From Sulfurimonas sediminis (GTDB lineage: Bacteria; Campylobacterota; Campylobacteria; Campylobacterales; Sulfurimonadaceae), in assembly GCF_014905115.1 (NCBI RefSeq), contig NZ_CP041235.1, positions 2,108,001-2,172,000 of the forward strand: 64,000 nt of DNA, written 5' to 3'. A model generated the notes under the pieces. That model did no database searches. It was not told the origin of the DNA and saw nothing but the letters and a program-made list of their open reading frames with translations. Below, one piece after another: positions 50,689 to 59,572 of this stretch; position 1 is the stretch's first letter; each line of letters starts with the position of its first letter. Position numbers and translations under genes: made by a program.

Positions 50689-50732
50689 TGAAATTATAAC
50701 AGCTTTTTCTTAAAAATGGTATAATTCTTACT

Positions 50733-51278
50733 ATGATATACATAGTAACCGCTCTCAAACCCGAAGCTCAGGCCTTCGTTGACAAATACAAACTCAAAAA
50801 ATCAAAACTGCAAAACTATACGCTTTTTACAAACACAGACATCAGACTCATTATCAGCGGTATCGGAGTTGACAATGCCAGACTTGCTACGCAGACACTT
50901 ATTGACAATTTTGACATTACAAAAGAAGACATTTATCTCAATGTCGGCATCTGTGCGGCACCCCAGCAGCATAAAATCGGAGACCTTTTAAAAATAGGCG
51001 CTGTAATGTATCACAATTCCCTTTATACTTTTAGTGCTGACAAACATACGCTTACATGTAAAGACGAAGCCGCCGCAATACAACACGATACACCCGTTGA
51101 TATGGAAAGTTTTGGTTTTTATGAGGCAGTTGTTCACAATCCCGCCATTGAAAAATTTCATATTTTAAAAGTTGTCAGTGACCATTTTGCACCCCATACT
51201 ATTACAAAAGAAAATACAAAATCACTTTTGTTTAATGTTATTCATGATATAAATAGAGTATTGCAAAGGCATATCTAA
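50733..51278 (+). CDS. nucleoside phosphorylase-fold protein (MTAN/futalosine hydrolase-like)
   Basis: 181 aa. The sequences IYIVTALKPEAQAF, LIISGIGVDNARLA, VDMESFGFYEA and KVVSDHF match the purine nucleosidase fold with its ribose-binding VDMES motif. It is shorter than MTA/SAH nucleosidase (about 230 aa), and the substrate cannot be assigned. It starts the plus-strand run into the peptidoglycan recycling genes (16 bases to the next start), so it may act in the same pathway or just share the promoter. A TTACATGTAAAG copy here (51052) encodes TCK, not HVK. Confidence 0.7.
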   Translation: MIYIVTALKPEAQAFVDKYKLKKSKLQNYTLFTNTDIRLIISGIGVDNARLATQTLIDNFDITKEDIYLNVGICAAPQQHKIGDLLKIGAVMYHNSLYTFSADKHTLTCKDEAAAIQHDTPVDMESFGFYEAVVHNPAIEKFHILKVVSDHFAPHTITKENTKSLLFNVIHDINRVLQRHI

Positions 51279-51294
51279 ATCAGGATTACTTATA

Positions 51295-52977
51295 ATGCGA
51301 ATCTTTTTACTTCTTTTAAGCCTCTTCTTAACGCTTCATGCCACAGTGCCTACAGATGCGCAACTCAAAAAAATGATAGGGCGCATGCTGATTGTCGGCT
51401 TTGATGAAACTTATGTAGAACCGACGTCACAGATAGTTTCAGATATACAAAAGTATGATTTGGGCGGTGTGATTCTTTTTGACCGGTTTTATACAGACAA
51501 ACAAAGAGTTAAAAATATCCTCTCACCCTATCAGCTGAAAAAACTTACCCGGCATTTACAATATTTTGCACACAAACCGCTTTTTATAGCCGTCGATCAG
51601 GAAGGCGGCAAGGTAAGCAGGCTCAAAGCAAAATACGGATTTTTAGAAATCCCCTCTGCTGCTGCCGTTTCGTGTATGCCTTTACAAAAGGCACAGCAAA
51701 TTTACAACGCTCAGGCGCAGATGCTCCAAAACAGCGGTATCAATGTAAATTTTGCTCCGGTAGTCGATTTAAGCACCAACCCAAAAAACAAAGTCATAGC
51801 AGGCTTGGAGCGTTCTTACGGAAGTGATCCCAAAGAAGTTGCAAAATATGCACAAACAATGATAGACGCCCAGACACGCCACAATGTTCTCTCTGTTTTA
51901 AAACATTTTCCCGGGCACGGTTCATCACTCGGCGATTCGCATAAAGGGTTTGTTGATATCACAAATACCTGGGATAAAAAAGAGTTAGAGCCCTATAAAA
52001 TCCTCATCAATGCCCATAAAGCAGATGCAATTATGACCGCACATGTCTTTAATGCAAATTTAGATGACACCTATCCAGCCACGCTTTCTTACAAAATAAA
52101 CACAGAACTTTTACGCAAACAGCTCCATTTTCAAGGTGTTATCATCAGTGACGATATGCAGATGAAGGCAATCTCGGCAAACTATTCACTCAAAGATGCC
52201 GTCACTTTGGCAATCAATGCGGGGGTAAATATTTTACTCTTTGGCAATCAGCTTGCATATAATTCTACCAAAGAAATAGTTGAGACCATCTTCAAACAGG
52301 TAAAAAGCAAAAAAATCCCGCTCAGCAAAATTATAGAATCCAATGCACGCATAGAGACCTTACATGTAAAGAGCGCCATCATTCAAAAGCCCATTATATT
52401 TGGTAAAAAACGCAAAGAATTGACACGAGCATACATCCAAAAACATTACGGCTTACATGTAAAGAACATACAGATACAACCTAAAATCATTGTCCTGCAT
52501 TGGACGGCTGTGATGGATGTCAATAACAGTTTTGCCAGACTCAAGCCGCAAAAACTCCTCTCTGACAGAAAAGAGATCGCCAAGGCTTCGGCTTTGAATG
52601 TTTCGGCGCATTTTTTGGTTGACCGTGAGGGGACTGTGTATCAGCTTATGCCGGACAATGTCATGGCACGCCACGTCATCGGACTCAACTACTCAAGTAT
52701 CGGCATAGAAAATGTCGGAGGCGAAGCAAACAAAAAAGAGGATTTGACTCCTGCACAGGTACGTGCAAATATTTCTCTCATCAAGTATCTCAAACAAAAA
52801 TATCCCGACATTCGCTACCTTATCGGACATTACGAATATACAAAAATGCAAAACAATCCCCTCTGGTTGGAACGTGATGCCGGGTATAGAACTCAAAAAG
52901 CCGACCCCGGAGAACTTTTTATGCAAGAAGTAAGAGCAGGTGTGCAGGATTTGCATCTCAGAGGTGCCGATGAGTAG
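51295..52977 (+). CDS. exported NagZ-type hexosaminidase fused to an Amidase_2 domain
   Basis: 560 aa. Signal peptide (about 1-17). Glycoside hydrolase family 3 domain (about 20-345) with VDQEGGKVSRL, KHFPGHGSSLGDSHKG (catalytic His/Asp pair) and ISDDMQMKAI, as in NagZ, which cuts GlcNAc-anhydroMurNAc. The C-terminal domain (about 395-550) is an N-acetylmuramoyl-L-alanine amidase of the AmpD/AmiD type: IIVLHWTA, SAHFLVDREGTVYQLMPD, IGIENVG and GHYEYTK...ADPG carry the zinc and catalytic residues. One exported protein would strip both the sugar and the peptide from muropeptides in the periplasm. Two copies of TTACATGTAAAG sit between the domains. Confidence 0.9.
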   Translation: MRIFLLLLSLFLTLHATVPTDAQLKKMIGRMLIVGFDETYVEPTSQIVSDIQKYDLGGVILFDRFYTDKQRVKNILSPYQLKKLTRHLQYFAHKPLFIAVDQEGGKVSRLKAKYGFLEIPSAAAVSCMPLQKAQQIYNAQAQMLQNSGINVNFAPVVDLSTNPKNKVIAGLERSYGSDPKEVAKYAQTMIDAQTRHNVLSVLKHFPGHGSSLGDSHKGFVDITNTWDKKELEPYKILINAHKADAIMTAHVFNANLDDTYPATLSYKINTELLRKQLHFQGVIISDDMQMKAISANYSLKDAVTLAINAGVNILLFGNQLAYNSTKEIVETIFKQVKSKKIPLSKIIESNARIETLHVKSAIIQKPIIFGKKRKELTRAYIQKHYGLHVKNIQIQPKIIVLHWTAVMDVNNSFARLKPQKLLSDRKEIAKASALNVSAHFLVDREGTVYQLMPDNVMARHVIGLNYSSIGIENVGGEANKKEDLTPAQVRANISLIKYLKQKYPDIRYLIGHYEYTKMQNNPLWLERDAGYRTQKADPGELFMQEVRAGVQDLHLRGADE

Positions 52978-54448
52978 CGGGTTTTCTTCTCTTGACTGGT
53001 TTGTTTTTGGCGCTTATTTTCTGATACTTGCCATCAGTTCATACCTCTTTTCCCAGTTTAAAATCCGCTCTTCAAGAGACTACTTTGTCAGCTCAAATAC
53101 TATGCCAATGTTCGCTGTTGCCGTCTCCATCGTCGCCACTTCTCAGTCTGCTGCAACTTTTTTGGGTGTTCCGGAGTTTGCCTATGTGTATGATTTTACC
53201 TTTATAGGCTTCTACTTTTCTGCGCTTGTAGCTGTTGTGTTTATCAGCATTGTTTTTGTCCCGAAGTTTTACAAATACAGGGTCGTCACCGTCTATGAAC
53301 TTTTACAAACACGCTACGGAGAACGTGCAAAAAAGCAGGCAGGATTGATGTTTTTGTTCGGACGGATTATGGCAAGCGGAGCCAGACTCTACATCGGTGC
53401 ACTGGCTGTGAGCATGATACTGTTTTTGGACATCAGCTTTTTACATATGCTTGTTGCTATCATTCTGCTACTCACTGGAGCCTTGGCATACACCTATTTC
53501 GGCGGCATTAAGTCCATCATCTTCAGTGATGTTATTCAAGCCCTTACCTATGTCGGTGCCGGTCTTTTAGTCTTTTGGTATTTGTATGTCTCTTTGCACA
53601 ATGTAGATATTTTAGCAATTTTACAAACACATAACAAGTTACATGTAATAGATAATTCACTTGATGGGAAGTTCAGCATTGTAGCACTTTTTAGTGGCTG
53701 GCTGCTTTTAAACATAGCTGCTTTCGGACTTGATCAGGACATGACCCAGCGCGTACTCAGCTGTAAAAACAAAAACGAAGCTGCACAGTCGCTCATTCTC
53801 TCCATTGTTTTGAGTATTCCCATCGTCATGCTTTTTCTTGGCATCGGAGCACTCCTTTTTGTGCATTACCAGACAAGTGCGGTAAGTCAGAATTTTCAAG
53901 GCGAGAGCATTACCATTTTTATGTATTACATCCTCAATGAAATGCCTTCGGGATTAAGAGGGCTTGTAACAGTCGGTGCCATTGCCGCAGCACTTTCAAG
54001 TACAAACTCTGTTTTGGGTGCCATGGCTTCTGTCGCCGTTGAAGATTTGTACCGACCGTGGAAATTGCAAAAAGATCCCCACACCAAAGAAATCCACTTT
54101 TTAAAAGCCTCCCGAACAGCCGTACTTCTTTTTGCCTTAATTCTCTTCTTGATGGCAGTTGCAAGTTATTTTTGGCAAAGAGAAAGTGAGCTTTCACTGG
54201 TGAGTTTTGCCCTGGGTGTGATGACCTTTGCCTATACCGGACTTCTTGGGGTCTTCTTTTGTGCAATTTTTACCACAAGAGGAAGTGCCACAACCGTTCC
54301 TTTTGCCTTAGTCGGAGGCTTTGTGAGTGTTTTGGCACTGCAGCCCTACATCTTTGGAATGCATATAGGTTTTGCCTGGCAGATGGTGACAGGGACTCTG
54401 GTCTCATTTTTAATTATGGGCACCTCTAAAAACCCTGATATACCTTAA
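52970..54448 (+). CDS. sodium:solute symporter (SSS family)
   Basis: 492 aa with about 13 spans. The start at 52970 (MSSGFSSLDWF) overlaps the upstream stop by eight bases and follows AGAGGTG. Family patterns: RSSRDYFVSSNTMPMFAV, TSQSAATFLGVPEF, the Na+-site region (GAIAAALSSTNSVLGAMASVAVEDLYRP). SSS members import sugars, amino acids or nucleosides. The coupling to the NagZ-amidase gene suggests it brings in the released amino sugar (GlcNAc, anhydroMurNAc) in place of AmpG; this is inference. Confidence 0.88.
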   Translation: MSSGFSSLDWFVFGAYFLILAISSYLFSQFKIRSSRDYFVSSNTMPMFAVAVSIVATSQSAATFLGVPEFAYVYDFTFIGFYFSALVAVVFISIVFVPKFYKYRVVTVYELLQTRYGERAKKQAGLMFLFGRIMASGARLYIGALAVSMILFLDISFLHMLVAIILLLTGALAYTYFGGIKSIIFSDVIQALTYVGAGLLVFWYLYVSLHNVDILAILQTHNKLHVIDNSLDGKFSIVALFSGWLLLNIAAFGLDQDMTQRVLSCKNKNEAAQSLILSIVLSIPIVMLFLGIGALLFVHYQTSAVSQNFQGESITIFMYYILNEMPSGLRGLVTVGAIAAALSSTNSVLGAMASVAVEDLYRPWKLQKDPHTKEIHFLKASRTAVLLFALILFLMAVASYFWQRESELSLVSFALGVMTFAYTGLLGVFFCAIFTTRGSATTVPFALVGGFVSVLALQPYIFGMHIGFAWQMVTGTLVSFLIMGTSKNPDIP

Positions 54449-54453
54449 ACACG

Positions 54454-54608
54454 GATTATGCAATAGAAAACTCAAGAAAGTCTCTATCATTGCACCCAAG
54501 GCACATTCATAAAATTATTGACCAACCAAAAAGGTTGGCACAACAATTTTCTAAACATCCCTTGAGCACAAGCATAGAACCTACTTATTGTTTTCTATTG
54601 CATAACCC
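54454..54608. repeat. 155-bp near-perfect palindrome (MITE-like)
   Basis: The ends TTATGCAATAGAAAAC (54456-54471) and its exact reverse complement (54590-54605) frame a segment that is palindromic along most of its length, with arms of about 75 bases, closing on the perfect stem CCAACC-AAAAA-GGTTGG. No open frame. The form is that of a non-autonomous mobile element or a very long hairpin. It fills the gap between the symporter and the toxin-antitoxin pair. Confidence 0.75.
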
Positions 54609-54687
54609 GGGTTAAAGCCAAAAAGATGTTTGACTAAATTATATAAATAATATATAATATTGCTATACAACCATATAAGGAATTATC

Positions 54688-54954
54688 ATGCATAGTTTAT
54701 CAGAACTTCAAAAACAACAGGTAGGGCTTCGCCTTCCTAAATACTTGCTTGATGAAATAGATGAATTTACCAAAGAGTATTCATTAAACCGAACCGACAT
54801 TATTGTTGAAGCTATAGCATCTTATGTACGTGAGCAAAAAGCAAAAAAATATTATGCTGCATTTGAGGATTCTGTACAAGAACTCAAAGAGGTTTTGACA
54901 TCAAATACACAGAACAAGCAACAAACCCTCGATGAATTAATCAATGAACTGTAA
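54688..54954 (+). CDS. ribbon-helix-helix antitoxin
   Basis: 88 aa. The N-terminal half (about 10-50) has the MetJ/CopG pattern: VGLRLPKYLLDEIDEFTKEY and LNRTDIIVEAIASYVREQ, one strand and two helices for DNA binding. The C-terminal half is charged and helical and would bind the toxin. The stop lies 11 bases inside the next gene, as expected for a pair. Such antitoxins repress their own promoter; the AT-rich stretch at 54630-54665 is the likely operator. Confidence 0.82.
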   Translation: MHSLSELQKQQVGLRLPKYLLDEIDEFTKEYSLNRTDIIVEAIASYVREQKAKKYYAAFEDSVQELKEVLTSNTQNKQQTLDELINEL

Positions 54955-55273
54955 CATAATCAGTCTTGAAAATTTTTCACGGGAAGTAAAAAAACTTTTT
55001 AAAAAGTATAAAAAGATAACAGCTGATTTGCAGGAGTTGCAAAAAATCCTCCAGAAAAATCCTCAAGCCGGCATAGAACTCGGACACGGCTGTTATAAAA
55101 TCAGACTTGCCAACTCCTCAATACCCACAGGCAAAAGTAGTGGTTTTCGTGTGATTTACTACTATCTTGACACACAGAACAATATATATCTTATGAGTAT
55201 CTATTCCAAAACAGAACTTGAAAATATAAGTGATCAAAAAATCATTGCCATACTCAAAGAAAACGGGCTGTAA
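54944..55273 (+). CDS. RelE/HigB-type toxin
   Basis: 109 aa. The pattern FSREVKKLFKKYKKI, YKIRLANSSIPTGKSSGFRVIYYYL and IYLMSIYSKTELENI is that of RelE-fold mRNA interferases: positively charged surface, conserved Arg after the SGF segment and a final helix. It would cut ribosome-bound mRNA unless held by the upstream RHH antitoxin. The gene overlaps the antitoxin by 11 bases and ends four bases before anmK. Confidence 0.85.
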   Translation: MNCNIISLENFSREVKKLFKKYKKITADLQELQKILQKNPQAGIELGHGCYKIRLANSSIPTGKSSGFRVIYYYLDTQNNIYLMSIYSKTELENISDQKIIAILKENGL

Positions 55274-55276
55274 AAG

Positions 55277-56365
55277 ATGAAAGAGTACTACCTCGGCGTT
55301 ATGAGCGGAACGAGTCTTGACGGTATCGACATTGCACTGTGTGAAATCGACGACACCCACTGTAAGCTTTTTGCTTCTGCCGAGTACCCTTTCCCGGGCG
55401 TATTAAAAGAAGAGATTCTCAAACTTACAGCCGGTTTTGGCACACTCAGACACATCGGTGAATGCCACACAAAACTCGGGCTTCTTTTTGCAGAGTGTAT
55501 CAATGATTTTCTTACAACAAATGCCTTACATGTAAAGAGTATACACGCCATAGGCCTGCACGGACAGACACTTTGGCATGCCCCTGATTCGCTTTACCCC
55601 TTTTCCATGCAGCTTGGAAATCCCAACATCGTTGCCGCCAAAACAGGCATCACAACCGTGGCGGATTTTAGAGGCAAAGATATAGCCAACGGCGGAGAGG
55701 GCGCGCCTTTTGCGCCTGCTTTTCATCAGTTTTTATTTGCCGATACACAGGAAAACACAGCGGTGCTAAACATCGGAGGCATGGCAAACATCTCTTTGCT
55801 TTTTGATACTTTTTGCGGTTGGGATGTCGGTTGTGGGAATGTTTTGATGGATATGTGGATGCAAAAAACAGAGTCACAAAACTATGACACAGAAGGAGCC
55901 TTTGCAAAAAGCGGCGAACCGCATGAAGCCCTCCTTGCACAGATGCTTGCTGATGAGTATTTTGACAAAAAAGCGCCAAAAAGTACCGGCAGAGAGTATT
56001 TTAATGCCGCATGGCTTGAAAAAAATCTTCGAGGCTTTGAACATCTCAGCGATACACAGGTACAAAGAACCCTGCTCGAACTCACCGCACACTCCATAGC
56101 CAATGACGTCAATGCCACACAGGCAACACAGCTCATCGTTTGTGGCGGCGGAACAAAAAACAGCTTTTTGATGCAAAGACTCAATGTGCTGTGCCATGCC
56201 AAAGTGTTGCCAAGTGACGCACTCGGTATAAACAGTGATTTTTTAGAAGCGATGGCATTTGCCTGGTTTGCAAAAAAACGCATCCATCAAGAACCTCTTC
56301 TTCTCAAAAAAGTTACCGGTGCAAAAAAAGATTCCATAGCAGGAGCTATTTATGCAGCAGATTAA
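55277..56365 (+). CDS. anmK: anhydro-N-acetylmuramic acid kinase
   Basis: 362 aa. The ASKHA-fold kinase starts GVMSGTSLDGIDIALCE and has GLHGQTLWHAPD, DFRGKDIANGGEGAPFAPAFH, LNIGGMANIS and VCGGGTKN, all AnmK signatures. It opens the 1,6-anhydro ring of MurNAc and phosphorylates C6 using ATP, giving MurNAc-6-phosphate. Its neighbours (NagZ-amidase, symporter, AmgK-like, MurU-like) place it in a cell-wall recycling unit; no MurQ etherase is visible in the window. Overlaps the next gene by 14 bases. Confidence 0.95.
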   Translation: MKEYYLGVMSGTSLDGIDIALCEIDDTHCKLFASAEYPFPGVLKEEILKLTAGFGTLRHIGECHTKLGLLFAECINDFLTTNALHVKSIHAIGLHGQTLWHAPDSLYPFSMQLGNPNIVAAKTGITTVADFRGKDIANGGEGAPFAPAFHQFLFADTQENTAVLNIGGMANISLLFDTFCGWDVGCGNVLMDMWMQKTESQNYDTEGAFAKSGEPHEALLAQMLADEYFDKKAPKSTGREYFNAAWLEKNLRGFEHLSDTQVQRTLLELTAHSIANDVNATQATQLIVCGGGTKNSFLMQRLNVLCHAKVLPSDALGINSDFLEAMAFAWFAKKRIHQEPLLLKKVTGAKKDSIAGAIYAAD

Positions 56366-57296
56366 AGCATGGTTGCAAACCACTCCCTATAAAGAGTATG
56401 CCATTGCAGTTGCCTCCGCTGATGCAAGTTTTAAAAAATATTATCGGCTTTCACACAAAAATCATTCTGTTGTTTTGATGGATGCCTCTTTGGAAAAGCA
56501 CTCTTTAACGCCCTTTGTAGACATCACTGCAAGACTTTTACATGTAAAGGTCAAAGCACCTAAAATTCTTGCGCAAAACCTCTCGCTCGGGTATTTGATT
56601 TTGGAAGATTTCGGCTCTACCAATCTGCTGGATGTTTTAAACAAAGAAACCTTCAATAAATTCTATGCAAAAGCGATTGATGAAATTATAAAGATACAAA
56701 AAGCCGATACAACTAACCTGCCTCTGTATGACAAAGCCTTTCTCCATAGAGAGATGGACCTGATGCAAGAGTGGTATCTGGAAAAAAAACTTGCGTTACA
56801 TGTAAACAAAGAAGAAAAAGAGTGCATCGCTTCTGCCCTTGAGGCAATATCGACAGTCGTCTTATCACAGCCGCAAAACATTTTTGTGCATCGTGATTTT
56901 CACTCGCGAAATATTATGCTTACATCGCAAAACGAACTCGGTATTATTGATTATCAGGATGCCATGAACGGGGCACTCACCTATGATTTGGTTTCGCTTT
57001 TAAAAGACTGTTATATTGCTTTTTCGCGTGAAGACATAGAAGCATTGGCACTTTTGTTTGCCCGCAAAAAGGATTTACATGTAAAGGATGAAATATTTTT
57101 AAAGTGGTTCGATTTTATGGGACTGCAGCGACATATAAAAGTGTTGGGAATTTTTTCGCGTTTGTATTTGCGTGACGCCAAAGAGGGATATTTAAAAGAT
57201 ATTCCACTGACACTGCGTTATGTGATTGAAACGGCTTTGCGGTATGATGAGACAAAAGAGTTTGGGAAACTTCTGCGGCAACTCAGCCCAGACTGA
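56352..57296 (+). CDS. amgK: APH-family sugar kinase, AmgK-like
   Basis: 314 aa. The aminoglycoside-phosphotransferase fold is shown by YLILEDFG (hinge), VHRDFHSRNIML (catalytic loop, Asp) and IIDYQDAMNG (metal-binding). It is of the group that includes AmgK, which phosphorylates MurNAc and GlcNAc at the anomeric carbon. The next gene, MurU-like, uses that product, so the role fits. The stop codon lies inside a double-hairpin repeat (57285-57361), so the last residues derive from the repeat. Three TTACATGTAA motifs lie within. Confidence 0.85.
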   Translation: MQQIKAWLQTTPYKEYAIAVASADASFKKYYRLSHKNHSVVLMDASLEKHSLTPFVDITARLLHVKVKAPKILAQNLSLGYLILEDFGSTNLLDVLNKETFNKFYAKAIDEIIKIQKADTTNLPLYDKAFLHREMDLMQEWYLEKKLALHVNKEEKECIASALEAISTVVLSQPQNIFVHRDFHSRNIMLTSQNELGIIDYQDAMNGALTYDLVSLLKDCYIAFSREDIEALALLFARKKDLHVKDEIFLKWFDFMGLQRHIKVLGIFSRLYLRDAKEGYLKDIPLTLRYVIETALRYDETKEFGKLLRQLSPD

Positions 57297-57361
57297 AGTC
57301 TGGGTTCCAAAGAGCGTAAGCATTTGGGCGGCTTTTCGGAACCCGGACTTCAGTCCGGGCT
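57285..57361. repeat. inverted pair of hairpin units (REP/BIME-like)
   Basis: Left unit 57285-57308 (CCCAGACTGAAGTCTGGG core) and right unit 57338-57361 (CCCGGACTTCAGTCCGGG core) are inverted copies, 22 of 24 bases alike, and each is itself a hairpin; the two differences keep base pairing. A 29-base GC-richer spacer (AGCGTAAGCATTTGGGCGGC) lies between. Base composition differs from the neighbours. The left unit contains the stop codon of the AmgK-like gene. Confidence 0.8.
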
Positions 57362-57416
57362 TTGTGGCTTACAAGCCTGAGGAGAATATAAAACTGTTTA
57401 AAAAGGAGATGTCTTT

Positions 57417-58073
57417 ATGAAAGCTATGATACTTGCAGCAGGACGGGGAGAGCGTATGCGTCCGCTGAGTGACACTGTGCCAAAACCCTTGTTACATGTA
57501 AAGGGAAAAGCGCTCATAGAGTGGCATATAGAAAAACTGGCGCATAAGGGTTTTGATGAGATTATAATCAATATTGGGCATTTGGGCTTTAAAATTCCGG
57601 CATATCTTGGAGACGGCTCCAAATGGGGTGTACGTATTCTCTACTCGGATGAACAAAAAAGCGGCGCCCTTGAGAGTGCCGGCGGTATCAAAATAGCACT
57701 GCCGCTTTTAGGAGATGCTCCTTTTTTGGTTGTAAACGGCGATATATTTTGTGAATATGACTACAACCCGAATTTCAAACTCACCGATACACTTGCCCAT
57801 CTTGTTTTAGTACCCAATCCTGCGCACAATCCGAAAGGAGATTTTGGGCTTAAAAACGGACTTGTAACAAATGAAGCCAAAACAATGTACACCTTTTCGG
57901 GTATAGGCTACTACCATCCGAAACTCTTTGAAAATGAAGCGTTACAAAAAAGCCCGCTTGCTCCGCTTTTGAGAAAAAACATTGACAAAAGTCTTGTCAG
58001 TGGCGAACTATTTAACAAAATGTGGCATGATATAGGCACACCACAAAGGCTTCAAGAAATCAATGAAAACTAA
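57417..58073 (+). CDS. murU: nucleotidyltransferase, MurU-like
   Basis: 218 aa. N-terminal MKAMILAAGRGERMRPLSDT with VPKPLLHVKGKALIEW is the sugar-1-phosphate nucleotidyltransferase signature; DAPFLVVNGDIFCEYD and DIGTPQRLQEI follow. Length and pairing with AmgK fit MurU, which makes UDP-MurNAc from MurNAc-alpha-1-phosphate. Together with AmgK this would bypass the MurA-MurB steps. A strong AAGGAG precedes the ATG. The LHVK in the signature is encoded by TTACATGTAAAG. Confidence 0.88.
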   Translation: MKAMILAAGRGERMRPLSDTVPKPLLHVKGKALIEWHIEKLAHKGFDEIIINIGHLGFKIPAYLGDGSKWGVRILYSDEQKSGALESAGGIKIALPLLGDAPFLVVNGDIFCEYDYNPNFKLTDTLAHLVLVPNPAHNPKGDFGLKNGLVTNEAKTMYTFSGIGYYHPKLFENEALQKSPLAPLLRKNIDKSLVSGELFNKMWHDIGTPQRLQEINEN

Positions 58074-59043
58074 ATTTATATTTTTACTGCTCCTAGGCAG
58101 TGTACTTTTTGCAAAATATGACAACTGCAATTTTACAAACAAACATTATGAAGATATTTGCAAAAAAGTCGTCAAACACGGCGTCAGTTACAAATATGCC
58201 AATGAATTTCTGCTTTCGTATTTTAAAACACAAAAGTATGATGAAATAACCTGGAAATACATACAGCCTTCAAAAATAAAATACCATAAAGAAAAAGAGA
58301 AACAGGCAAACAATGTACTGGTAAAATATGTTCCGAAGATGGTACAAAATCTTCAAAAATACAAAGATGTTTACGACTATGCTGAAAAAAAATATCATGT
58401 CAATCGTGAAGTTATTGCCGCTATTTTACTCAAAGAGACAAAGCTAGGCAAAATAAAACCGACGCATGATGCCTTCATCGTTTTTAACACTATAGTGACA
58501 CGCACAAAGCCCGATACCCACCGAAATAAATGGCTCTTACAAATGGGCAAAACAAATATGGCCTCGATTATAGAGCACTGCTATAAAAAGGGGGTCAAAC
58601 CTGAACAGTGTAATCTGCCTAGCTCTTACGCCGGTGCCATAGGCATACCGCAGTTTATGCCAAATAGTTTCATCTATACAGACTCTTACAAAGGCAAGGT
58701 CGCAGATCTAACAAAAATGGAAGATGCCATTCTCTCCGCTGCGAAGTTCTTACATGTAAAGGCAAAATTTGACACCCTCATTGAGTGGAAAAAAATGCCA
58801 GATATTCCAAAAGTAGAACAGGAGTGGTACGCCTATGCCTACAAATACGACAATGCCTCATTTTGTTATGAAAGAAGCAAAAAAAGCAAAAAAGTGTACA
58901 AATGTTTTACAAAAGAGAAAAAAAATCTCCAGTATATGAGAAAATATGTACAAAAAATTATGCGCTACAACAACTCTTCAAACTATGCCGTCGGTGTTAT
59001 CCGTTTGGCTTATGAGGCTCATATTTTACTAAAAACTGAATAA
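58063..59043 (+). CDS. MltB-type lytic murein transglycosylase
   Basis: 326 aa with a signal peptide (about 1-17). The catalytic Glu lies in AAILLKETKLGKIKP and the substrate motif SSYAGAIGIPQFMPNSF follows, as in the MltB family (family 3 lytic transglycosylase). It would release 1,6-anhydro-muropeptides, the substrate for the NagZ-amidase and AnmK genes upstream. It overlaps murU by 11 bases, so it is part of the same unit. Confidence 0.9.
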   Translation: MKTKFIFLLLLGSVLFAKYDNCNFTNKHYEDICKKVVKHGVSYKYANEFLLSYFKTQKYDEITWKYIQPSKIKYHKEKEKQANNVLVKYVPKMVQNLQKYKDVYDYAEKKYHVNREVIAAILLKETKLGKIKPTHDAFIVFNTIVTRTKPDTHRNKWLLQMGKTNMASIIEHCYKKGVKPEQCNLPSSYAGAIGIPQFMPNSFIYTDSYKGKVADLTKMEDAILSAAKFLHVKAKFDTLIEWKKMPDIPKVEQEWYAYAYKYDNASFCYERSKKSKKVYKCFTKEKKNLQYMRKYVQKIMRYNNSSNYAVGVIRLAYEAHILLKTE

Positions 59044-59125: not shown

Positions 59126-59572
59126 ATGGCAGTAGTAGGATTTACAAAATTACAAGAGATTTTTAGAAAAAGTGCATCTTTGGATATTCATAAAGGACAT
59201 GCAAAAGAGGTAACAGATATCGTTGAACAAAAATTATATGATATGCTCACTATCGCTCAAAAAAATGCAAAATACAATGGTCGTGATGTTATCTGGGTGG
59301 CAGATATGCCAATTACAAAAGGGTTTGAGGAGACTGTCGAAATCTTTAAAAAACTTGAATCAGAAATAGATGCAAAAGATGTTGCGCAAATGCTTACATT
59401 TTATCCACCGGTTTTAGCCCTCGAAACAGAACTTGAAGAGAGACTTCCTGAAATAGCTGGAGCACTTTTAGTCACCCTTGCAAAAACAATGAAAGCAATT
59501 GATCCTGCAGACAGAGCTGTTGATCACGAACTTATCAGTAAAGCACACAAAGTTCTCAATATTACAATGTAA
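59126..59572 (+). CDS. DUF1931-family protein with double histone fold
   Basis: 148 aa, soluble, helical. The pattern GFTKLQEIFRKSASLDIHKGHAKEVTDIV and AKYNGRDVIWVADMPITKGFEE matches DUF1931, whose known structures show two histone folds in one chain. Whether it binds DNA is not known. A strong AAGGAG lies upstream, and a bidirectional terminator follows. It stands alone after the peptidoglycan cluster. Confidence 0.8.
   Translation: MAVVGFTKLQEIFRKSASLDIHKGHAKEVTDIVEQKLYDMLTIAQKNAKYNGRDVIWVADMPITKGFEETVEIFKKLESEIDAKDVAQMLTFYPPVLALETELEERLPEIAGALLVTLAKTMKAIDPADRAVDHELISKAHKVLNITM

Follow-up and report, generated by a model that had tools for sequence, protein, structure and literature searches.

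In the textbook Gram-negative scheme of peptidoglycan recycling, followed by E. coli, intact muropeptides are imported by AmpG, a route that also feeds beta-lactamase induction; Bacillus subtilis uses the MurQ route. Uptake of a free wall sugar has been described in Tannerella forsythia, in which N-acetylmuramic acid (MurNAc) is carried by MurT, a member of the sodium symporter superfamily (PMC5790795). The uptake and use of 1,6-anhydro-MurNAc (anhMurNAc) by that species were left open, MurT being only suggested (PMC7670621). Here we describe a gene cluster in a stretch of 64,000 nucleotides from the sulfur-oxidizing bacterium Sulfurimonas sediminis (the window; NZ_CP041235.1, G000:C1:2108001-2172000), which lies in a genome assembled as a 2.32-Mb single contig that is 99.99% complete. 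The cluster encodes an exported fusion of NagZ and an N-acetylmuramoyl-L-alanine amidase, a sodium/solute symporter of the SSS family, AnmK, an AmgK-like kinase, MurU, and an MltB-like lytic transglycosylase. An earlier note on this DNA, made from its letters and open reading frames (ORFs), had compared the symporter with a symporter-type MurNAc carrier in Tannerella, and the published description of MurT confirms that such a carrier exists.

We read the cluster as a unit for periplasmic digestion of wall fragments to single sugars, Na+-coupled import of anhMurNAc, and anabolic return of the sugar to UDP-MurNAc, a reading that we consider probable. It draws on gene content, conservation, signal-like N termini, and the absence of the E. 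coli route from the window genome. In the proposed pathway, the MltB-like transglycosylase would free N-acetylglucosamine (GlcNAc)-anhMurNAc-peptides, which the exported fusion would cut in the periplasm to GlcNAc, anhMurNAc, and peptide. The symporter would take up anhMurNAc with Na+, and AnmK would open and phosphorylate it to MurNAc 6-phosphate (MurNAc-6-P). A Cof-type phosphatase of the HAD superfamily, encoded elsewhere in the genome, would remove the phosphate, and AmgK and MurU would then convert MurNAc to UDP-MurNAc. GlcNAc would enter through a NagP-like permease, receive a phosphate at C1 from AmgK, and pass to GlmU, which is presumed to be present. The AmgK route is proposed for GlcNAc because NagA and a ROK-type NagK were not found in the window genome; the AmgK of Pseudomonas uses both MurNAc and GlcNAc (PMC5371407), as the name of the NCBIfam model also states. 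The parts that we infer are the symporter's cargo, the phosphatase's substrate, and the GlcNAc branch. Their specific combination (a dedicated Na+-anhMurNAc symporter, an HAD-IIB protein replacing MupP, and GlcNAc use through a NagP-like permease, AmgK, and GlmU without NagK or NagA) we put forward tentatively, as possible rather than probable. If true, both wall sugars would be returned to nucleotide sugars with their acetyl and lactyl groups retained, in Gram-negative autotrophs that lack AmpG.

Conservation of the gene cluster

Gene neighborhoods were compared across the best 80 of 124 confirmed symporter homologues, and gene content across a sample of 60 genomes of relatives (22 genera), 37 of which belong to the genus of the window. 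Within the 80 loci we grouped 23 as Sulfurovum-type, in which an amidase alone stands beside the symporter and the symporter is ~60-63% identical to that of the window; their records are titled Sulfurovum, Epsilonproteobacteria, or Campylobacterales. The other 57 are termed Sulfurimonas-type and include the nearest named relatives, two loci titled Sulfurimonas whose symporters are 90% (L031) and 85% (L065) identical to that of the window.

A NagZ and/or amidase ORF lies upstream of the symporter in 78 of the 80 loci, within 50 bp in 74 and overlapping in 67, and these counts are unchanged when symporter starts are set as in the window; the remaining two loci begin at a contig end. The upstream neighbor is of fusion length in 29 of the 78, counting one (L040) in which a nucleosidase-like MTAN domain and NagZ share a frame, and is a single-domain protein in the rest. 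AnmK lies downstream of the symporter in 69 loci. It was not seen in 11, eight of which have <2.5 kb of sequence past the symporter. Further along the cluster, AnmK and AmgK were seen together in 58 loci (53 within 50 bp), AmgK and MurU in 49 (39), and MurU and MltB in 36 (26). Of the 37 genus genomes, 30 have the symporter together with NagZ/amidase and 7 have neither; two of the 30 (G017 and G025) show the symporter only as a fragment at the edge of a contig, and G017 shows the amidase half only. The symporter occurs in 1 genus of the 22 in the 60-genome sample, to which the named collection adds Sulfurovum and related metagenome-assembled genomes.

The enzymes keep their catalytic motifs, which are intact and near-invariant across relatives. 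Asp183 of the AnmK motif WDVGCGN is kept in 64 of 64 aligned sequences and Glu125 of the MltB-like protein in 35 of 35, and the AmgK-like motifs HRDFHSRN and IDYQD are conserved among relatives. AnmK passes one of its NCBIfam cut-offs.

Several observations weigh against the proposed pathway. AnmK was not found in L092, L097, and L098 despite 4.4-9.0 kb of sequence past the symporter (9 kb for L092 and L098). Exported-type NagZ/amidase homologues are more widespread than the symporter (40 of 60 genomes and 11 of 22 genera, versus 30 of 60 genomes), and thus such NagZ also occurs without this symporter. The co-occurrence counts, here and below, take no account of shared ancestry. Finally, two proteins score far under the models for which they are named: the AmgK-like kinase reaches 248 bits against an AmgK cut-off of 550, and the MltB-like protein 70 bits against an MltB equivalog cut-off of 281.

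Some related sequences stand apart. In G002:C8:15932-17425 and G015:C197:3980-5476, symporter matches lie in open frames of 840-849 aa with one inner TAG, which perhaps represent longer or run-on proteins. A similar amidase domain occurs within a 604-aa open frame at G039:C1:1719955-1720521, in a genome without a symporter match.

Absence of the E. coli route and the site of cutting

AmpG was found in 0 of 76 genomes at E<=0.001; with the same model, 5 of 14 control genomes match, including E. coli and Caulobacter, and 2 score over the cut-off. MurQ is over its cut-off in 0 of 60 genomes. Matches to the MurQ model at E<=0.001 do appear in 58 of the 60; all are below the cut-off, most cover part of ~600-aa or ~200-aa frames, and judging by these lengths we take them to be GlmS- and GmhA-type SIS domains. 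Searches of the window's complete genome for GH3 and for Amidase_2 each led to one protein, in both cases the fusion, and no second, cytoplasmic NagZ or Amidase_2 protein was found. NagA is likewise not found in the window genome; 12 of 60 genomes match its model weakly or strongly and one is over the cut-off. That one (L159, G009:C1:756227-757354) may belong to a catabolic GlcNAc route in its own genome. Kinases of the ROK family, to which NagK belongs, were not found in the window genome, and one is present in 4 of 12 genomes tested. The earlier note had named a complete AmpG-cytoplasmic NagZ/AmpD route as one half of what would speak against its scheme of cutting outside the cytoplasm; no member of that route was found in the genome, nor was MurQ over its cut-off.

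The second part of the argument is the location of the hydrolases. The window fusion has an N-terminal hydrophobic, signal-like segment by hydropathy. We applied a hydropathy criterion (a 10-residue stretch of mean hydropathy >=2.0 within the first 49 residues) to 78 NagZ/amidase proteins, namely 77 relatives of at least 200 aa and the window protein, and found a signal-like stretch in 73, in both fused and split forms. The five exceptions comprise three proteins cut by a contig end (L034, L039, and L052), one whose start is placed too far upstream (L040), and one at 1.97 (L102). Several Sulfurovum-type amidases carry, by reading, a lipobox-like LTAC. Sixteen Sulfurovum-type genomes, out of 23 such loci, showed no NagZ next to the symporter, and each of these genomes has at least one GH3 protein; the N terminus is readable in 14 of the 16, and a hydrophobic segment precedes the domain in 14 of 14. 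Cutting outside the cytoplasm, as the earlier note had supposed for the window protein, is thus supported for fused, split, and Sulfurovum-type forms alike on hydropathy grounds.

Residues with catalytic roles in NagZ and AmpD are kept throughout: D214, H216, and D286 of the GH3 half in 30 of 30 aligned long proteins, and H402, E472, H512, K535, and D537 of the amidase half in 29 of 29. A structure model of the fusion has a mean predicted local distance difference test (pLDDT) score of 87. Among the 50 Foldseek matches to solved structures that were listed, mainly the NagZ half is aligned; solved NagZ relatives include B. subtilis YbbD and mycobacterial LpqI.

A candidate MurNAc-6-P phosphatase

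The earlier note had left the product of AnmK as a puzzle, having seen neither MurQ nor a phosphatase. MurQ has no match over its cut-off, as given above, and a candidate phosphatase lies outside the window. Clustering of the ORFs of the 80 loci revealed a Cof-type HAD-IIB phosphatase downstream of the cluster, on the opposite strand. Counting only loci with MurU and at least 1.5 kb of sequence beyond the cluster, it was seen in 6 of 6 Sulfurovum-type loci, at a distance of 0.2-2.1 kb from MurU, and beyond the final gene of the cluster in 13 of 29 Sulfurimonas-type loci, 12 of which add a permease of the FucP/NagP family and mostly also an aldose epimerase. The window genome encodes the HAD at G000:C1:189618-190445 beside a NagP-like permease (the pair spans 189618-191685), without the epimerase. 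The presence of the HAD agrees with that of the symporter in 34 of the 37 genus genomes (Fisher's p 2.7e-4, uncorrected for ancestry). The mismatches are G029 and G033, 79% and 78% complete, with the HAD and no symporter, and G017, 68% complete, with a symporter fragment and no HAD. Agreement is full in the 25 genus genomes of good quality (completeness >=90%, contamination <=5%), 23 having both and 2 neither. With moderate confidence, we predict from this genomic pattern that the Cof-type HAD dephosphorylates MurNAc-6-P in place of MupP, to which it is not orthologous. The HAD gene of the closest complete relative (L131, G011:C1:2173988-2174801) is divided between two frames, either through an error or as a broken gene.

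A number of points count against this assignment. No HAD is seen past the cluster in 16 of the 29 Sulfurimonas-type loci with enough sequence, and in the window genome the gene is not beside the cluster, lying ~0.34 Mb from the window end if the contig is circular. Only two good genus genomes lack the set. Five genomes from outside the genus (G039, G041, G051, G053, and G058) have HAD homologues that are 37-44% identical but no symporter match, and so the link with the symporter does not extend to the entire HAD family; weak matches also occur in G037, likewise outside the genus. The partner permease scores below the NagP equivalog cut-off (449 in the window genome and 508 in L071, against 625) and is over the cut-off for the glucose/galactose subfamily TIGR01272 (gluP). 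The partner operon, with its major facilitator superfamily sugar permease and aldose epimerase, could serve another sugar.

Such a division of labor is the core of the first alternative, in which the pathway is the same, the phosphatase is a housekeeping HAD_2 protein of the Gph/MupP kind, and the Cof-type HAD serves the other sugar of its partner permease. Pseudomonas MupP is itself an HAD_2 protein (PMC5371407), and the PGP_bact model TIGR01449 gives three matches in the window genome, the best two confirmed as HAD_2. Those two, however, score 99.6 and 67.1 with the MupP model, far below its cut-off of 359, and their counterparts stand among the same neighbors in G013 and G020, which lack the symporter, NagZ/amidase, and Cof-type HAD altogether. 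PGP_bact matches occur in 60 of 60 genomes, and so their presence says little about MupP; scores over the cut-off are confined to 11 of the 60, and to just 7 of 37 in the genus. The Cof-type HAD also follows the symporter more closely than the partner permease does: the permease agrees with the symporter in 29 of 37 genus genomes and is never present without the HAD in those 37, and it was not seen in the six Sulfurovum-type loci in which the HAD lies near MurU. We regard a housekeeping HAD_2 phosphatase as unlikely.

The cargo of the symporter

A structure model of the symporter built from a 37-protein alignment has a mean pLDDT of 88 and a predicted template modeling score of 0.87. The sialic acid transporter SiaT (5NV9/5NVA) is its best match by both sequence and fold: it is the nearest solved structure by sequence (E 1.1e-38, 25-26% identity), takes Foldseek ranks 1-2, and aligns in VIA-align with Z 43.4 and a root-mean-square deviation of 2.6 over 461 aligned residues, the next family being NIS at Z 38.0. 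The ligand of SiaT is also an acidic N-acetyl sugar. In SiaT, Ser60, Thr63, and Arg135 hold the sialic acid carboxylate and Gln82 touches the glycerol tail (PMC5931594). Here Ser60 and Thr63 are invariant and the Na2-site serines (343-344) are kept. By contrast, the phmmer alignment places Ala135 at the position of the salt-bridging Arg135 and an invariant Tyr82 at that of Gln82, and the gene context differs from that of SiaT. Arg132 and Arg139, which flank Ala135, are 99-100% conserved. A sugar lacking the glycerol tail would be expected to go with loss of that contact, and the lactyl group would fit an acid pocket, although these considerations are suggestive only. Both replacements count against the reading. 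Solved bacterial SSS sugar carriers are also few among the structures listed (SiaT and vSGLT), so that SiaT might come first for many query proteins, and the match to it is weak evidence on cargo.

The symporter might instead import some other compound, such as lactate, GlcNAc, or an amino acid released from peptides, with anhMurNAc entering through an unrecognized carrier. SSS proteins transport highly varied solutes (PMC7918813), and the replacements at SiaT positions 135 and 82 fit this as well. The genomic setting argues otherwise: the symporter overlaps NagZ-amidase and lies near AnmK in both Sulfurimonas- and Sulfurovum-type loci, its presence agrees fully with that of NagZ/amidase in the genus, and a separate GlcNAc-type permease is present in 24 of the 30 genus genomes that have the symporter. 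We therefore hold a different cargo to be quite unlikely, and predict from gene context and the distant resemblance to SiaT that the symporter carries anhMurNAc or MurNAc. The role of sugar importer given to it in the earlier note gains from the overlap and the joint presence and absence with NagZ-amidase, while the cargo itself stays a prediction. The main text of a review of the SSS family (PMC7918813) contains no mention of muramic, MurT, peptidoglycan, Campylobacter, or anhydro.

An operon of exported hydrolases and a monosaccharide importer would also fit the scavenging of wall sugars from other bacteria, as in the MurNAc-auxotrophic Tannerella (PMC5790795, PMC7670621), in place of recycling of the cell's own wall. 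The presence of AnmK and MltB speaks rather for anhydro products that lytic transglycosylases of the same cell release, and the catabolic exit through MurQ and NagA was not found in the window genome. Scavenging in place of recycling is thus decidedly improbable, though the two can coexist. It is highly improbable that whole muropeptides enter independently of AmpG through an ABC system such as the YejBEF-YepA importer of Agrobacterium (PMC9790009), with the periplasmic enzymes as a side activity: one ORF of L170 resembles a peptide-binding protein by reading, but the window genome has no cytoplasmic NagZ or Amidase_2 protein left to process what would be imported.

Layout of the locus

The features of the locus are collected in Table 1. 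Most of what the earlier note had said of its six main genes stands, namely their families, coordinates, and shared strand. The run itself is not unbroken: 828 bp separate the symporter end at 54448 from the AnmK start at 55277, and 120 bp separate AmgK from MurU. The probable start of the symporter is ATG 52970, from which the gene overlaps that of the fusion by 8 bp; GTG 52940, further upstream, is the less favored start.

Table 1. Features of the proposed wall-sugar recycling locus, in window coordinates
Feature	Position	Strand	Evidence
MTAN-like (nucleosidase/phosphorylase-like) small protein	50733..51278	+	ORF; weak NCBIfam match, 33.5 vs 161 bits
Exported NagZ (GH3)-N-acetylmuramoyl-L-alanine amidase (Amidase_2) fusion, 560 aa	51295..52977	+	PF00933 224.8 bits; PF01510 74.5 bits
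SSS-family (SSF) Na+/solute symporter, proposed anhMurNAc/MurNAc importer	52970..54448	+	PF00474 100 bits
Short element like a miniature inverted-repeat transposable element, with terminal inverted repeats and TTATGCAATAGAAAAC core	~54450-54615	none	Direct reading and script
Toxin-antitoxin-like pair	54688..55273	+	88-aa protein and RelE/ParE-like protein
AnmK	55277..56365	+	PF03702 436.8 bits; NCBIfam NF007139 454.5 vs cut-off 367
AmgK-like anomeric MurNAc/GlcNAc kinase (APH fold)	56352..57296	+	PF01636; best NCBIfam model AmgK
MurU, MurNAc-1-P uridylyltransferase	57417..58073	+	NCBIfam NF045761 294.5 vs cut-off 250 bits
MltB-like lytic transglycosylase (SLT_2)	58063..59043	+	PF13406 108.9 bits; hydrophobic N terminus by reading

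The 828 bp, which the earlier note had left unmentioned, contain the inverted-repeat element and the toxin-antitoxin-like pair; these are insertions outside the pathway. The 88-aa protein of the pair has no Pfam match and is an antitoxin by position; its RelE/ParE-like partner falls just under both Pfam cut-offs. A homologous pair occupies the same junction in L031, L034, and L043. Among the 69 loci with both genes, the symporter-AnmK gap is <=50 bp in 38, 51-300 bp in 3, and >300 bp in 28; the junction behaves like an insertion hot spot, the long gaps carrying varied genes. Because this junction is variable, the unit is best seen as two blocks that are usually neighbors, [NagZ-amidase-symporter] and [AnmK-AmgK-MurU-MltB]. 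A promoter-like sequence at 54630-54658, an 11-of-12 match to the consensus alone, lies just ahead of the toxin-antitoxin-like pair and could serve as a separate promoter for the second block, apart from the symporter block.

The MTAN-like gene is possibly the first gene of the operon. Its homologues lie upstream of NagZ in Sulfurimonas-type loci (ORF cluster 7, in 31 of the 80 loci), and an extended -10 promoter-like match at 50696-50725 precedes it. In L040:4809-6533, MTAN-like and NagZ sequence share one reading frame, through fusion or an assembly frameshift. A DUF1931 (PF09123) protein is encoded at 59126-59572, directly 3' of the MltB-like gene.

Discussion

Every enzyme family in this pathway is already known; what appears new is their combination, in which AnmK belongs to the operon, AmpG and MurQ were not found, and an HAD protein is the candidate phosphatase. 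This design was not found in the literature searched, where most subscription papers fell outside coverage. We found no literature on peptidoglycan recycling in Sulfurimonas, and by title none of the papers on AnmK and Campylobacter concerned recycling in Campylobacterota. A marine group without AmpG that apparently recycles at the level of free sugars would represent a second way of recycling among Gram-negative bacteria. Such a group would also offer a candidate dedicated importer of free anhMurNAc, a point left open in the Tannerella work (PMC7670621), and the present analysis names a candidate non-orthologous MurNAc-6-P phosphatase.

Elements of the design recur in several described systems. 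Rhodothermus marinus has AnmK, a proposed periplasmic NagZ, and neither AmpG nor AmpD; its NagZ bears a beta-lactamase domain, its predicted operon has other genes, and no importer is named in the accessible part of that description (PMC6987092). In B. subtilis, as in the proposed pathway, NagZ and an amidase (AmiE) act outside the cytoplasm and monosaccharides are imported (PMC6987092). The Sulfurimonas arrangement differs in being Gram-negative and in using a single fused enzyme, a Na+ symporter in place of the MurP phosphotransferase system, and an anabolic route.

T. forsythia resembles the proposed pathway in its symporter-type uptake of a free wall sugar by MurT (PMC5790795), the window protein belonging to the SSS superfamily by PF00474 and by fold, and in having AmgK and MurU. 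It differs in having AmpG, in carrying murQ and murK beside murT, and in having no predicted AnmK (PMC5790795, PMC7670621). The neighbors of the symporter in the window are instead NagZ-amidase and AnmK-AmgK-MurU-MltB, and AmpG and MurQ were not found.

The Pseudomonas-type pathway shares AnmK, an AmgK-like kinase, MurU, and the return of intact MurNAc to UDP-MurNAc, with no MurQ over the cut-off here. It is set apart by the absence in the window genome of AmpG and of a cytoplasmic NagZ or Amidase_2 protein, in place of which stand exported cutting and a Na+ symporter. Where Pseudomonas uses MupP, neither of the two HAD_2 proteins examined here is over the MupP cut-off, and an HAD-IIB protein is proposed instead.

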